DNA of 33,304 nucleotides from Spirogloea muscicola. Lineage: Eukaryota > Streptophyta > Zygnematophyceae > Spirogloeales > Spirogloeaceae. The notes under the pieces are model-generated. The model was not told the DNA's origin, did no database searches, and saw only the letters and a program-made list of their open reading frames with translations. Every line of letters begins with the position of its first letter. Position 1 is the first letter of the stretch. Shown here one piece after another: positions 105 to 18,600 of the stretch. The stretch spans positions 1 through 33,304 of the forward strand of contig WELB01000434.1 in the NCBI GenBank assembly GCA_009602725.1, read 5' to 3'. The position numbers were made by a program, and so were the translations under genes.

Positions 105-632
105 AGGCTCGAGCTAAAGAGCTGAAGTATGCTGATCATCCGCCGGAAGACGAGTTCTTCCCGCTGGCTATCGACATCCATGGGGCGTTGGGTGCTCGGT
201 GGCTCGAGCTGCTCAACCAGTTCGCCCGCCACGCCATCGCCCGCCGCTTCCATGAGGAGCCGGTGGACTTTCCTGCAGCCGGGTCGCTCGCGCAGGTGTA
301 CCGCATGCGCGTGGCCGTCTCGCTGCAGAGGTCTATGGCCCGTGCGCTGCACCTGCGTGCCGGCAGAGCCCTCGCTGCTGCCTCTGGATCTGGCCATGGG
401 ACCCACTTCCAGGAGCCTAGCATCTCTGACCTGCGACTGCTTAGCAGGAAAGAGATCGTGTATTAGAAAGAAATGCAGGGGTTTAGCAGGGGTTACTGAG
501 TAATTCGTAGCTGCTTTGATTCGTTTTGTGCTTGTCTTTCTTAGTTCTTCCCCTGGCCCCCTTCTTGTACTTTGTTCATTCTATTTTGGGCTGGCTGTTC
601 GAGCCCCTATCCTCAATGGGCGGGCCCTTTCG
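105..632 (+). pseudogene. 5'-truncated non-LTR retroelement copy, type A (RLE end plus 3' UTR)
   Basis: Translation across frames gives the element's C-terminal coding end: AKELKYADHPPEDEFFPLA, then ALGARWLELLNQFARHAIA, then AAGSLAQVYRMR and LQRSMARALHLRAGRALAA, ending SISDLRLLSRG before a TGA at about 500. The type A 3' UTR follows, then a hairpin at 584-623 with tail CCTCAATGGGCGG. No ATG-led complete frame remains, so this is a dead fragment. Near the stop codon a 34-bp stretch (449-482) lies between two copies of TTAGCAGG, which displaces the normal ending. The copy runs directly into the next one at about 630. Confidence 0.8.
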
Positions 633-1249: not shown

Positions 1250-1670
1250 GAAGAAAGTGCTCGCCCATAGAGAAGAGAAGTGGCACTCCTAAAGGGGGCA
1301 AGATCTGCGAAAAGCCAGCGCGAAAAGAATTGACAAAGGCTCGGAGGGGCCTAAAAGCACTCAGCAGCTACGAAGGGGCCTGAAGATGCTATGTCAGAAC
1401 GGGGGCAGGATGGATCACTCAGTACTTACGAGTGAGGAGCCTCAAATCCGACAGACTAGCTGCCGGAAATCTATCCCCCTGACGAAAGCCGGAGGCCGCA
1501 GCGAGAGCACGGCCAGCACGCAGATGCAAAGCATGGGCCATGGACCGCTGAAGGAATCTCATGCGACAGACTTGGGCCCACGAGCCAGCGGCGTTGAAGT
1601 CAGCCGGCTCACTGCGCCTGCGGGCCACAGCGTGCCGCGCAAGCCTGGCCAGCAGAGAAGAGGGGCTGGG
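1250..1670 (-). pseudogene. 5'-truncated non-LTR retroelement copy, minus strand
   Basis: Read on the minus strand, it encodes RRRSEPADFNAAGSWAQVCR, then LQRSMAHALHLRAGRALAAA, then SLSDLRLLTRKY with a TGA at 1419-1421. The 3' UTR then runs down to the tail TCTATGGGCGAGCACTTTC at about 1251-1275. Its hairpin is degraded. The upstream boundary near 1670 is where similarity to the other copies stops. Confidence 0.72.
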
Positions 1671-2845: not shown

Positions 2846-3300
2846 GAAAGTGCTCGCCCATTGAGGAGAGGGGCTGGACAAGCCAGCCCAAAAAAGAATG
2901 AGCAAAGTACGAGAAGGGGGCCAGGGGAAGAAAGAGCGCGCCCATAGAGAAAGGGGGCCAGCAAAGCCAGCCCAGAAAGAATGGACAATGGGGAAGCGCT
3001 AAGAAAAGCAAGCACAAAAACGAAGCAAAGCTGCTACGAATCACTCAGTAACCCCTGCTAAGCAGCCGCAGATGAAGAAGAAAGAGCTCGCCCATTGAGG
3101 ATAGGGGCTGGAACAGCCAGCCTAAAAAAGATGGACGAAGTACGAGAAGGGAGCCAGGGGAAGAGCTAAGCCAAAAGAAGAAGAAAGGCCTCGCCCATAG
3201 AGACGAGGGGCTGGCAAAGCCAGCCCAAAAAGAATGGACAATGTCCAAAGCCAAAGAAAGAGATGCCGAAGAAGGACTACTCTACCAAACGCAACAACAC
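2846..3300 (-). repeat. Head-to-tail stack of four retroelement 3' ends
   Basis: Four units follow one another on the minus strand, each with hairpin and tail. In minus-strand order they are: type B (about 3300-3185), type A UTR (about 3180-3080), type A with coding end CTTAGCAGGGGTTACTGA (about 3075-2932), and type A UTR (about 2930-2846). Each unit's tail (ATGGGCGAG plus CTTTCTTCTTC) runs directly into the truncated 5' end of the next. This is the pattern expected if new copies insert at, or are primed from, existing 3' tails. Confidence 0.75.
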
Positions 3301-3337: not shown

Positions 3338-3768
3338 GCTCGCCCATAGAGAAGAGTGGCTGGCAAAAAAGCCAGCCCAAAAAGAATGGACAATAAGCAA
3401 CAGCAGGTCAGAATAACTCGATGCGGGGAAGGAGGCGCTCCGACCCGGAGGCGGCGGCCACAGCGCGTCCTGCGCGCGTGTGGACTGCGAGGGCAAGCGA
3501 ACGTTGGAACGATACCGCCAGGCGCATCCGAAAGACTTGGGCGAGCGACCCGGCGGCGTTGAAGCCGGGCAGCGCCCCGGACAGACCCGGCCTCCGGTCA
3601 ATAGAAGGTGCTCGCCCATTGAGAAGAGGGGCGGTCAATAGCCTAACGGGCAAGCCGCTGGAGGAGATCCAGCCAGCGGCTGCCGAACACCCCGTGGACG
3701 TCGTTCGCCAAGGCCGCGAACTCGTCGCCAACCGGGTGGTCAGCTTATTTGCGCTCCTTTCCCCGGCA
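3338..3768 (-). pseudogene. 5'-truncated type B retroelement copy carrying a micro-insertion
   Basis: The minus strand encodes a degraded AGERSANKLTT segment (compare AKERKYADH in other copies), then GFNAAGSLAQVFRMRLAVSF, VHTRAGRAVAAASGS and SYSDLLLL. It then jumps directly into the 3' UTR (ATTGTCCATTCTTTTTGGGC) without the usual stop region, so an internal deletion is present. The hairpin and tail are at 3338-3395. A 28-bp insertion at 3605-3632 interrupts the coding part. Confidence 0.72.
3605..3632 (-). mobile_element. 28-bp retroelement tail micro-insertion with 9-bp target duplication
   Basis: The 28 bp lie between two perfect copies of GGTCAATAG (3596-3604 and 3633-3641). On the minus strand they read GCCCCTCTTCTCAATGGGCG then AGCACCTT, exactly the second hairpin arm remnant and tail of the retroelement. 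The host sequence is itself a retroelement coding fragment. The perfect flanking repeat and the identity of the insert make this a convincing, extremely short retro-insertion. Confidence 0.82.
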
Positions 3769-4620: not shown

Positions 4621-5149
4621 GCGGTAGCCCAGGCTGGCGTGTCCCACCAAGGCCCACGCCACCCGGTCCTCACCACTGGCAGTGGGCTGCTGACCTCGAC
4701 CTGGCCGCGCTTCACCGGCAGGAGGCTCTCCCGCTCCTGCGCCATGTTCCACGTTGGGCGCGCCCGCACTTGCGTCGCTACCTCCGCCCTGTCTTGCACC
4801 GCATCGTGGCGGACCACGATGCGGGATGAGGCAGCCTGGAGAATTCCCATTCTTTTCATCCGGCTGCTACTCGTCCGCGCACCCCCCTTGAGAGCGGGCG
4901 GTGGGAGGAGCTTCTGGCGCAGCACGACGCCTCAGTGGCTGCGGCGGCAGCTGGTCGCCGCACTTCGCAGGCAGCCCCAACGCCAGACAGGGCGGCCAGT
5001 GTCCGCCACGCTTTTTGCCTTGGCCATGCAGGGGAGCTCTCAAGGACCGTGCAGGCGCTTGATGATTTGGTGTTGGCGCTGGCGAATGGGGACCAGCGGC
5101 AAGCCCTCTCGTCCCTCCATCCCCGGCGCGCTCTCCCCCGCCCTCGTGG

Positions 5150-6535
5150 TTGGCTTCCTACGCACTGCAGGAGGAGGTGGTCCTCGATGCCGCAGCTCTC
5201 CGCAAGTTCCTGCAGAGCAGCCGGCGCCCAGCTGCGGGCGACCCCTCGCGCAAGCTTACGGAGCACCTGCGGCAGCTCTTTCTGGAGAGGGACGAGGCGG
5301 ACTTTCAGGCGCGGCACCAGGTGTGTCAACACTTTGCCCAGGATCACGTCCCTGCCAGCATCCGCAATGTGCTCTGTGCCAGCACCCTGCTGGCCCTCAG
5401 CAAGGCCAATGGAGGCGCCCAACTGTTCGCCATAGGCGAGGTGCTGTCTGATGGGACGGGCACCGTGGCAACAGCAAGCAGAACAGCCCCAGACACACCT
5501 GGCGCTGCACCAATGCGGCGCCGGCCTGCGGAGCGGCAGCGAAGCCGATGTCCACGGGGTGCGGGCCACCCTTGACCTGCACCCTGAGTGGGTGGTGCTT
5601 GCGGTGGACATCCGTAATGCCTTCGACAGGGTCGACCGAGCCGCTGTCACCGAGGAGCTGTGGGAGGCCTTCCCACCCTGCCGTTCTTCCCACTAGGCTA
5701 TGGCCAGCCCTGTGATCTGCTCTGGAGGACAGGCAACGAGGGGGTGGAGGTCCTCCGGTCTACCACGGGCACCCGACAGGGGGACTGGCTGGCCGGGTTT
5801 TTCTGCGCGCTGGCCCGCAACCGTGCGCTGAAGGCCACGGCAGCTGCGCACCCGGGTGTCCTCGTGCCCACCTACGCTGACGACACCACGCTGGTGGGGC
5901 ACCCAGCCGAGGTCATGTCTGCCTTCGCCACCCTTGAGGAGCAGCTGGGGGAGATCGACCTGGGCATCCGTGCGGAGAAATGCAGTGCCTGGTCCCCGCA
6001 GGGCCTGCCAGCCCTCCTACCCCTGCCCTCCAGCTGTCAGACACCAGCCGGGGGCCTCACCCTCCTTGGGGTCCCCTTAGGCTCACCAGCCTTTGTGGTG
6101 GATCAGCTGCAGGCACGGCTGCAGGAGCATCTCCGGCCAGCGGACCGCCTCCAAGAGCTGCAAGACATGCAGCTGGCGCTCGCCATGCTCACGAGGTGCA
6201 TTGCACAGCCGCCGCAGTACCTGGCCGGAGCCCTCCCTCCCTCCCTTGCAGCGCAGGCCGCCTACGCAACCTTTGATGCAGGTATCCTGGCCAGCGCAGC
6301 GGCCCTGGTCCAACACCCGGCCTTCCTGGAGTCGCCGACTGCGGTGCAACAGGCCTCCCTGCCTGTGAGCCGTGTTGGTCTGGGCTGCCGCCGACTTGCC
6401 CGCTCCTGCCGGGCTGCATACCTGGGTAGCTGGGCGCAGGTTGCGGCTCTGGTGGCCCAGCGATCCATCCGGCATGGGGTAAGCCTGCTGGAGCAGGTGG
6501 CTGCGGACGTGGAGACCGGCGCGTTGCCTTTCTAG
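5150..6535 (+). pseudogene. Reverse transcriptase domain of the non-LTR element (frameshifted)
   Basis: Three frames join. At 5150-5440 LLALSKANGGAQLFAIGEVL matches the N-terminal RT motif. At 5570-5695 AVDIRNAFDRVDR is motif A with its catalytic Asp. From 5660 TGTRQGDWLAGFFCALA is motif B, TYADDTTLVG is motif C with the catalytic DD pair, and LGIRAEKCSAW is motif D. The thumb and downstream helical region extends to a stop at 6533-6535. The catalytic residues are intact although the frame is broken at least twice. Confidence 0.85.
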
Positions 6536-7561: not shown

Positions 7562-7619
7562 GAGCCTCCTTGCTGACGTCTTGGCGCTTATTATCGTGCT
7601 TCTTGCGCCATCCGGCCCT

Positions 7620-8110
7620 TGCAGACCCTATCCATTCTTTTGGGCTGGCTTCTCACAGCCAGTGCTGTCAATCTGGAAGCGCTATTTGCTTGTCAGTCAC
7701 CCTGGGCTGGCCATTCGCAGCCATCGTCCCCTTTCTTTCTGTGACCTTCTACACTCTGTTGGGTGGCCTCTCGCAGCCCTTGCTTTGGTATGGGAGAGTT
7801 GTTTCTCCTCTGCGCCGAATCAGACCCTGTCCAGTCGTTTTGGGCTGGCTGTTCGCAGCCATCGCCCCCTTTCGTTCGGGCCCCTTAGGAAGAGCTCACT
7901 TTCTTGTCAGAGAGCTTCTCTTACTCCGCGCTAGGTCAGCCCGGCGCTTGCTTCGCCCCTTCAGAAGAGCTGCTTCTAGTCCCACTTGACTTCACAATCA
8001 CGCTTGTGGAGAAGGTCTTCCAAACGAGCTCTTCTCAAAGAGAAAATGCATATGAACAAAGGGGGCGATGGCTGTGACAGGCCAGCCCAAAACTGACTAG
8101 CAGAATCGGA
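7620..8110. repeat. Cluster of type D retroelement 3' hairpins
   Basis: Hairpin cores of the form GGGCTGGC ... CAGCC occur at about 7640 (plus), 7703 (plus), 7770 (plus, degenerate) and 7838 (plus). GGCTGTGACAGGCCAGCCC on the plus strand at about 8070-8090 is the minus-oriented form. Between them are short tracts such as CCCCTTTCTTTC. The first is the true 3' end of the element at 4330-7690; the others are separate truncated copies. I see no gene. Confidence 0.6.
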
Positions 8111-10592: not shown

Positions 10593-13500
10593 TCAGGCCT
10601 TACTTGTTAGCTGGCAAGAGTCGGGTTGCATTGCCGTGCCGCCAACTGGGGTGTAGCCGGTGTTGCAAGTGCACTGGAAGTCGGTTTTCGATATGGCAGT
10701 GCAGGTGGAGAAGGCAGGGCAAGATCCTTTGCCGCACTTGAAGTTGGGCGGTGGAGGAGGAGGGGGGCTTGGTGGAGGAGGGGGGGCTGGCTGGCAGGAT
10801 TTGGGCTGCATGGCCGTGCCGCCGACCGGGATGTAGCCGGCGTTGCAAGTGCACTGGAAGTTAGTGGGAGACATAGCACTGCAGGTGGAGAAGGCAGGGC
10901 AAGATCCACTGCCGCAGCGGAAGTTGGGCGGCGGAGAGGGGGGGCGGGGAGGCGGCGGCGGCGGGCGAGGAGGGGGAGGCGGGCGGAGGAAATGCGTGTA
11001 TATTAAGAGATGGGGAGGCCATGTGTGGCCAAGTACGAAGGCAAGCACATTGGACAAATGTACGTCACCTGCTGCTAAGCTGACCCGCTCAGTAACCACG
11101 AGTCAGCACATAGAGGTCGCTAGCTGACGCTCGAATACCGGACGGCAATTGACTAGCTCTTGNGGAGGAGGCGGGGGCGGGGGAGAGGGAGGAGGTGGGG
11201 GCGGGGGAGAGGGAGGAGGTGGGGGAGGAGGTGAGGGAGGAGGTGGCGGCGGCGACAGAGGCGGTGGCGGCGGCGGCGAGTGGGGAGGAGGGGGGGAGCG
11301 CGCTGCAGGTAACAGCAGAGATGCAGCTTGTCAGCAGGCGGCTACCATGGAGTAAGCGCAGACAGCAGCACGATCGCAGCAGATAAATTCCAGAGTTCAC
11401 AGAGAAATGGTGCACACGGTCTGAGTACCAGGAAAAAGAGTGTACCTCTCTTCGTAATGCGGGCGACTGTGGGGTCATGATCCGAGACTACGGTAGGGTC
11501 CGATAGGGCGAATTCAGAGTCCACATGAATGGGCTCGATGCCAGTGACGCGGCTGAGCAGAGGTGTGGACACCAAGAGATGATCCAGCTCCTGGCTGTTG
11601 CCCTGATAGACGTATGAGTAGCGCTGGCTGACAGGGAGGAGGTAATCTGCCAGCGTCGTCAGACGCCAGTTCGGTGCGATGGGGGACTGGAGAATCTGAA
11701 GCGGGTTGGACCAGGCAAAGTCGTTGAGGTCGCCACCCAGGATGACGTTAGCATTCGGATCTGCCGCCACCAGCGTCGAGAGGAAGTTCTGGATCACGGT
11801 GGCTTGCTTGTTGCGCTGCACCTCAGAGCTGAGAACTGGGGTGGGCTGGTGCACGCCGAAGAGGTAGTCGTCACCACCCTTGCTGTTGAGGTGATTACCG
11901 CACACGAAAATCTTCTCACCATCAATGAGGAACTCACCCACCAGAGGCTTCCTTGACGAAACCCAGGCAGAGTTGCCGGGATCGATCCTGCCAGGGCTCC
12001 AAGAGAGCTGAACTTCGCCTGAAGAGGATGTGACAACCGAAACGGCATCGTATGTGGGGCTGGAGGAGCCATTGTACGGCCTGTCAACAAAGGTAACCTG
12101 GTCCGGACGGAACATGAAGACTTGCCGGATGTTGCCACCTGGCTGGCCACCGTCCGTGCCATTCTGAGGGTCAATCTCGCGATAATCATAAAGGGGGCCA
12201 CCTGCGGCTGTGATGGCTGCGATTATGCGTGCCATGGTGACGTTGCAATCCACCACGCCGGCGGGATTGGGAACATCCCCTGAGTTAGGGGCTGCTTGAC
12301 TCTGCTGGATCTCCTCAACGATGATGATGTATGGCGAAAGCATGTTGTTGACCACGATGTTTGCAACTGCATCAAATTTAGTTTGCGGAGCTTGGCCTCC
12401 AAAGTTCTCCATGTTGAAGCTGGCAATGCTGAACTCTGTGGATGTTGGAACAGTTGCCACCGTCTTGGACAGGTGGTTGTCAATGCGGGTCGGCACTCCG
12501 TTGGTGATGGGGAACCTGGTTGCAGAGCGAGCAGATCAGTCAAAACAAGTAGACATAGAATTGAGATCACACGCTTCCTCAGTGGTAAAGGATGCGAACT
12601 CTAGGGTCTAGGCTTCGATGAGAGCACTCACTGGTACTGGCCGAAGTCGTAGTCAACATAGGCAACAATGGGACCCCCAAAGTTGTCACCAACATTGAAG
12701 GGAGGGAAAACTTTCCCAGCAGCAGCGTTATAGAAGCGTGCGTCCGTAACAGTGATGATCTCAGGGTTGTAGTTGTCTGGCTGCAGAACGATGCCACCAC
12801 GAGGCGTACGGACACCAGGGCTCACAATTGAGCCATTGTCTGCCAGCACTGGCATCTCACCAAACTTGTTTGCCGGGCCAGAGACAACGCTGCAACCGTG
12901 GAAAAGCGCAGCAATAAGTTGTTTGTACACCCATCCCTCGCTACACTTCTGCTCCATACTCTTAAGGACAACATGCACCACACACCACCTTAAACAGTAG
13001 AATATCAAAGCAACCTGTCACATAGCAGAGCGAGCAATGAGTAATACATGAATGCAGGCGGCAGCGCTGAAGCACTCACGCATTGTTAATCTGCACGAGC
13101 ATGGCCTCCAGGCTTTCATAGAAGTCAATCCCACGGTTGACAGGGTCGTATACGGAAAAGCCTCCTGGGCCACTGATGTTCTGAGTGGGGATTGTCCGGC
13201 CTCCGTCTCCCAATATGATTGGAGAAGGCCTGCAAGCAACCAAAAAGAGAAAAATCCTGTGAACCTGTAGCCTGTGTAGTACAATCCACCTTAGCCCCAA
13301 AAACACTGGTAATCTAATGCTGGTGCGGAGTGTATCAGCTTCTTACAGTGTGTTTCCAGTGGAGAGTGTCGTAACGGAGCCAGACGTGGCGGTTGTACCA
13401 GTAGCCAACTCGGTGACCGACAAGCCGCCAGAGCCTGGGAAGTACTCCTGAATCTTGCCATTCACTTGCAGACTGTCCCCCACGGAGGGTGCATATCTAA

Positions 13501-18339: not shown

Positions 18340-18600
18340 CGCTCTCTGAACGTTGTCCAAACAACTTGGGCTGGCCATCCAGTCACTGCCGCCAGGCAAG
18401 AGCACTCCTCTTCTTTTTCAATCATCTCCTATCATGTCATGCGCACCGCGCTCCTTCTCCTTTGGGCTGGCCTGACACCCATCACCCCCTTCCGCAAAGC
18501 TGCTGCTTCTTCAGAAGAAATAGCTCTCCCATCTCAAGGCAATCGCTGTGAGAGGCCGGCCCAAAGAAAAAGGAAGCCCAAAGGAACTTACAAGGGTCTG
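18340..18600. repeat. Type D hairpins in inverted arrangement
   Basis: CTTTGGGCTGGCC at about 18460 (plus) and GGCCGGCCCAAAG at about 18555 (minus-oriented) are reverse complements with one mismatch, about 90 bp apart. A further plus copy with GGGCTGGCCATCC lies at about 18368. The inverted pair could fold as a foldback unit. Confidence 0.55.

Follow-up and report, generated by a model that had tools for sequence, protein, structure and literature searches.

The question raised by this locus is whether a fragment of retroelement tail shorter than 30 bp, enclosed by a short perfect direct repeat, is an insertion in its own right and, if so, whether it belongs to a class of such insertions and by what process they are made. 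In the window (the whole stretch of DNA analysed, 33,304 nucleotides from Spirogloea muscicola) the first-pass annotation had described a 28-bp tail insert with a perfect 9-bp target-site duplication (TSD), which proved to be real and can be refined to an insert of 27 bp with a 10-bp repeat. Read directly, positions 3596-3641 consist of GGTCAATAG, 28 bp and GGTCAATAG again, and on the minus strand, which is the sense of the element, the order is CTATTGACC, GCCCCTCTTCTCAATGGGCGAGCACCTT, CTATTGACC. Comparison with empty paralogues gives a 10-bp duplication, CGGTCAATAG, which occupies 3595-3604 and 3632-3641, and a 27-bp insert; 28 + 9 bp and 27 + 10 bp describe the same junction, one base being common to target and insert. 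The parts of the locus are as follows.

3487 to 3744, minus strand: target, the C-terminal part of the ORF in an older, degenerate copy from the same LINE superfamily; its joined flanks translate as LLQRLAR*AIDRRPGLSGALPGFNAAGSLAQVF
3595 to 3604, no strand: left copy of the TSD, CGGTCAATAG, found a single time in each of the ten aligned paralogues (L121-L130)
3605 to 3631, minus strand: 27-bp insert (28 bp with the shared base 3632), the 3' tail of the element, sense CCCCTCTTCTCAATGGGCGAGCACCTT; exact 28-mer in L012, L013 and L074, absent from the ten aligned paralogues
3632 to 3641, no strand: right copy of the TSD, from the sequence and the paralogue alignment

An empty-site query of 221 bases was made by joining both flanks with one repeat, and paralogues were used as empty sites. 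The query aligned to all 40 scored loci (of 2,137 first-look candidates) with 88-97% identity, over its whole length in 34 of them and over 216-220 bases in six. The ten paralogues that were aligned to the window are all without the insert and carry the target once, with substitutions in the target site of three (L124, L125 and L130). A 10-bp match in a search space of 15 x 21 would be expected by chance with a probability of about 3e-4 at equal base frequencies. The exact 28-mer was found in three of 162 fetched loci, and the insert is therefore a true family tail. The earlier statement that it is exactly the tail of the local element thus holds for the family and fails for the locality: no second identical 28-mer is present within the window, where three other copies at no more than 3 mismatches differ by 2, 2 and 3, so that the "local element" would be a subfamily located elsewhere in the genome. 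In our judgement the 27-bp insert is very probably a genuine, extremely 5'-truncated LINE insertion made via target-primed reverse transcription.

The tail 14-mer of the family, GCTCGCCCATWGAG, occurs 8,919 times in exact form in 153.1 Mb, as against a single occurrence of the reversed control. The 3' UTR of the element closes with a short hairpin followed by the motif CTCWATGGGCGAGC and a tail of pyrimidines, ACTTTCTTCT; in copy L144, whose frame is open over 1,350 codons from stop to stop, the short 3' UTR ends in the hairpin GGGCTGG-N5-CCAGCCC, then the 14-mer, then ACTTTCTTCT. For three tail types, the terminal 59-61 nt were calculated to form this hairpin with energies between -15.3 and -19 kcal/mol; the z-scores, -1.3 to -2.3, are modest. 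A second long copy (L143), likewise with RVT_1, has a stop-to-stop frame of 1,418 codons, and frames of 1,300-1,560 codons are open in 23 of 150 scored reverse transcriptase (RT) loci. The L144 ORF matches RVT_1 (E 8e-16), and in PDB it hits three R2 sequences (E 7e-7 to 1e-6) and nothing else at E <= 0.1; the apurinic-type endonuclease domain Exo_endo_phos, sought in the two long ORFs at E <= 1, was not found, unlike in Dualen/RandI. The element is probably an R2-like LINE of the RLE type with a single frame of about 1,350-1,420 codons. Two C-terminal motifs, CxC..H..C and R.DLV..DVVTTD..AK.KY, are conserved by eye in a four-sequence alignment and look like a restriction-like endonuclease, to be regarded as a candidate domain; a PDB profile search with the four C-terminal sequences returned nothing at E <= 1, and a one-sequence structure model of a window protein is of low confidence (pLDDT 48.8). 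The flanks vary between copies and lie on many contigs, at odds with the 28S rDNA-site specificity of R2. In L143 at about 4730-4800, a short piece of foreign sequence separates the hairpin from the motif in the tail of this long-frame copy.

The family is dense in the window itself, where 18 tail motifs with at most 2 mismatches were counted against 0.61 expected. The following relatives were located by motif scan or, for the last one, by a match to RVT_1.

1259 to 1272, minus strand: second very short tail copy, extending about 5 nt past the 14-mer
2852 to 2865, minus strand: A-type tail copy, a neighbour of the insert
3086 to 3099, minus strand: A-type tail copy that includes hairpin and 3' UTR, a neighbour
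3338 to 3351, minus strand: B-type tail copy with hairpin, a neighbour
5753 to 6460, plus strand: RT region belonging to a degenerate relative of the family (RVT_1 E 4.5e-6, short of the gathering score)

A flanking repeat of at least 6 bp was sought around the tail copy at 1259-1272 and not found; the RT region is 64-81% identical to the 149 other scored loci. Three further places in the window were recorded as separate observations. At 455-500 (minus strand) ATTTCTTTCTAATACACGATCTCTTT lies in the 3' region of the element with CCTGCTAA on both sides and ACCCCTGC as filler, from which a second repeat family seems to make micro-insertions as well. Other repeats at 7600-7900 and 18360-18560 carry a GGGCTGG...CAGCC stem without the GGGCGAGC motif (by eye) and are perhaps related LINE or SINE tails. 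An endonuclease/exonuclease/phosphatase domain (Pfam E 2e-9) is encoded by an ORF at 11342-12535 (minus strand), near proline-rich ORFs.

A class of micro-retroinsertions had been proposed from the window alone, together with a scan for tails and a test of their flanks for duplications, which was run here on part of the short copies in the genome. For each copy the longest exact repeat between 5' flank and 3' flank was compared with those obtained with swapped 3' flanks. In set S1, the genome-wide copies ending at GCCCC in the hairpin arm (23 matches fetched, 22 used with L070 off-centre, 3 dropped, 19 tested), a repeat of at least 8 bp flanks 8 of 19 copies and 3 of 342 controls, and the mean repeat length is above that of all permutations (0 of 10,000). 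In S2, a second selected set (61 matches, 38 fetched, 18 dropped for a second repeat in 13, a hairpin present in 4 and a duplicate in 1, and 20 tested), the corresponding figures are 4 of 20 and 25 of 380, and one permutation in 10,000 reaches the mean; the signal is weaker than in S1 because the S2 flanks are pyrimidine-rich. Pooled, the two sets give 12 of 39 against 63 of 1,482 controls. A wider sample of tail copies from one contig, taken together with 10 of 11 copies from the window, gives 21 of 92 against 7.6% of 2,760 controls, and unselected short copies (<25 nt) give only 3 of 25 against 3.5% of controls. A further set, S4 (19 matches, 10 fetched, 4 dropped), was kept outside the statistics, and a loop set (9 matches, 7 fetched) was judged by eye. 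A clear duplication is missing in many short copies, the repeat being below 8 bp even in 11 of the 19 copies of the cleanest set, S1; age, short duplications or a changed target may account for this.

Individual cases in the selected sets include repeats of 13 bp (L103), 10 bp (L065) and 9 bp (L074 and L077), and in the sample repeats of 12 bp around a 23-bp insert (L037) and around 37 bp (L033). As counted by eye, empty paralogues exist for 12 short insertions no longer than about 50 bp, namely the case in the window, two copies in L008 (611 and 419), L038, L048, L065, L066, L073, L083, L085, L111 and L116. Two of these are cut inside the 14-mer, L111 with an insert of 12-13 bp and CCTGG repeated, and L116 with an insert of 14 bp and only CAG repeated; L085 and L116 have merely 2-3 bp of repeat in spite of the empty paralogue. 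The proposed class therefore exists, with flanking repeats above chance and with these 12 empty sites. The hallmarks of target-primed (LINE) insertion are all seen, namely a TSD of variable length, the gain of the insert plus one repeat relative to the empty site, and a fixed 3' end with a variable 5' cut-off, the fixed 3' end being partly by design since copies were selected via the tail. As separate observations, tails of different subfamilies lie at the same place of the element ORF (GGTCTATGG) in L065 and L073, possibly a preferred target, and short tails stand in tandem, two or three in a row, in L095, L020, L022, L041 and L102, which points either to template jumping or to repeated insertion into tails already present.

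The lengths of the copies were examined in the sample, which covered 80 of 100 listed places among the 8,919, on one contig and with an exact 14-mer required (the listing is not strictly consecutive, and places beyond about 1 Mb of C1 are on the plus strand only), and gave 82 copies; in six of these a second repeat adjoins the tail copy, and they were censored at that point. The median extension 5' of the 14-mer is 54.5 nt, with a single copy running to the examined limit of 600 nt, so the premise that ordinary truncation leaves hundreds of bases fails for this R2-like LINE family. After censoring, the 5' end lies in or before the terminal hairpin, within 24 nt of the 14-mer, in 17 of 82 copies; the first count was 20 of 82, from which censoring removed three, namely the loop variant L017 and two with the second repeat, L007 and a single copy in L009. 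Scaled to 8,919 occurrences this would be about 1,850 copies (95% 1,190-2,740), extrapolated from one contig. Across bins spanning 0 to 400 nt the hazard of truncation lies between 0.4% and 1.9% per nt, about 1% per nt overall, and the 5' ends fit an exponential with a mean of 84 nt (KS p = 0.94, before censoring) or 96 nt after censoring. The highest hazard, 0.019 in the bin of 50-60 nt (95% 0.008-0.037), is taken as noise. In all likelihood the micro-insertions form the short extreme of a single exponential distribution of lengths, whose mean is about 85-95 nt past the 14-mer.

Two explanations of the short inserts had been offered at the outset, a stop of reverse transcription at the terminal hairpin and a tiny 3' RNA as template. 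If the hairpin blocked reverse transcription, a discrete class of tail-only inserts would result, and both the calculated stability of the hairpin and the start of the reported insert in its 3' arm agree with this; however, the hazard in the hairpin is 0.0108 per nt (14 truncations in 1,293 nt) as against 0.0109 elsewhere up to 300 nt (58 in 5,326 nt; binomial p = 1.0), so the hairpin is not a block, and genome-wide pattern counts are without a pile-up (61 before the arm, 23 in the arm and 9 in the loop, with the caveat that the share of events admitted differs between patterns and not every match is a truncation). We regard a hairpin block as very improbable indeed. A short 3' RNA could have served as template either as one defined, SINE-like species or as random 3' decay fragments copied to their end. 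One defined RNA would leave one fixed 5' end, and the 5' ends are instead spread exponentially, so a single small RNA is not the template; random fragments would yield the same exponential and would explain a short mode alongside a long one, but interrupted cDNA accounts at least equally well for the overlap often seen at 5' junctions. Taken as a whole, the short-RNA explanation seems to us rather unlikely, with some real chance left to it.

The short copies could also be longer insertions that were later trimmed by deletion, and a few may qualify, as the hairpin arm is still present upstream in 3 of 22 S1 and 4 of 38 S2 copies. In the positive cases, however, the repeats directly abut the short inserts and the empty paralogues lack both the insert and one repeat, which makes trimming improbable in the extreme. 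DNA-templated patch repair of the polymerase-theta type, copying tail DNA into breaks, is a further possibility; short inserts, microhomology and filler are typical of it. Set against this are the repeats of 8-13 bp that flank many inserts and the counts of words, which drop steadily away from the 3' end as if copying starts at the tail (a comparison of word counts and flanking repeats, and hence a partial test), and we consider patch repair highly unlikely. Template jumping with a second repeat, whose tail ACACGA stands directly 5' of the short tail in 13 of 38 fetched S2 loci and in some sampled copies, was also considered and rejected: in L081, L091 and L100 the second element sits inside the tail of a Y copy, with TCTTCTCT repeated in L091 and L100 and TCTCTAT in L081 (by eye). 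These three are the checked ones of the 13 S2 loci, the other ten having been dropped on the presence of the second repeat. The ACACGA-tailed second family, inserted in Y-family tails with a short target repeat, gives false "chimeric" tails.

The exponential of abortive copying, as preferred above, would leave few long copies, and the numbers of long copies were assessed in the uniform A1 subfamily. The word next to the tail (28 bases) occurs 991 times, that at about 300 nt upstream 189 times and that at about 2,000 nt upstream 50 times, which amounts to a loss of about 0.61% per nt early on and 0.078% per nt further out; copies that escape the first word, for example those with another hairpin loop such as L023, are included in the counts of the upstream words. 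The early rate held constant would leave 0.006 copies at 2 kb as against the 50 words observed, and a second, processive mode beside the abortive one is therefore likely, on the assumption that the three words are equally conserved. On balance we are slightly inclined to think that the usual product of this LINE is a micro-insertion, thousands of tails of 12-100 bp being scattered by an abortive state that stops constantly at about 1% per nt and the full-length copies being made by a rare processive state, so that the family would mainly generate small, indel-like insertions.

In the mechanism that we propose, the element protein would bind the tail RNA, the endonuclease would nick the target beside a pyrimidine-rich site, and the RNA tail would anneal to the nicked end. 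Synthesis of cDNA would start there and then, at about 1% per nt and with no favoured stop, the enzyme would fall off or meet end joining; the cDNA end would be joined to the other strand via a few bases of microhomology or filler, giving a duplication of variable length, and full-length copies would be the product of the rarer processive mode. Among 37 copies with a repeat of at least 7 bp, the upstream repeat overlaps the insert in 24, extra bases are present in 12 and one junction is flush, and the repeat starts with C or T in 34 (with CT in 14); choosing the longest repeat inflates the figures both for overlap and for the C/T start, and some of the repeats are pyrimidine runs. The junctions would fit both microhomology joining and pairing of the CUUUCUU tail to the nicked target.

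Many inserts, some of them below 30 letters, thus appear to be spread genome-wide, and repeat annotation could easily miss these. If the activity of a LINE can result mostly in inserts of 12-100 bp, repeat annotation underestimates LINE activity and its share in small insertions. The near-exponential cut-offs in thousands of copies form a natural record from which the ending of reverse transcription in vivo can be read quantitatively, and the cause of 5' truncation (intrinsic processivity, template decay or host end joining) becomes directly testable. For ZfL2-2, longer inserts are reported in Ku70 and Artemis mutant DT40 cells (PMC2666801).

The closest relatives of the element may lie in the R2 group of RLE LINEs (R2, NeSL, HERO, CRE and R4), with which it shares a single ORF and to which it is apparently alike in its RT and, by eye, in the candidate C-terminal motifs. 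Four of the five RLE clades are mostly target-specific and HERO has many non-specific members (PMC4640811), whereas the insertions described here are scattered. The green-algal LINEs in the tables of one review are L1, RandI and RTEX (PMC3747384), and L1 and Dualen are carried by Chlamydomonas relatives (PMC8226300); a literature search that covered few subscription papers found no paper on RLE elements in green algae. The R2 element of Blattella germanica is alike in its random 5' truncation and differs in that its copies lie at the rDNA site, the surveyed cut-offs being within 456 bp of the 5' end of the element (PMC7650587). Stringent-type LINEs of the UnaL2/ZfL2 kind have a stem-loop near the 3' end, as do the three folded tail types (PMC4176376). 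A similar search, again covering few subscription papers, found no account of a class of very short LINE insertions or micro-insertions. Truncated LINE copies span 100-1,000 bp according to the above review (PMC3747384), as against the median of 54.5 nt past the 14-mer and the 17 of 82 copies within 24 nt found here. Human L1 and zebrafish ZfL2-2, which are target-primed and 5'-truncated, likewise show variable 5' cut-offs, TSDs and microhomology or extra bases at the 5' junction (PMC2912911; PMC2666801), and the micro-insertions of this algal family are an extreme variant of this ordinary 5' truncation.
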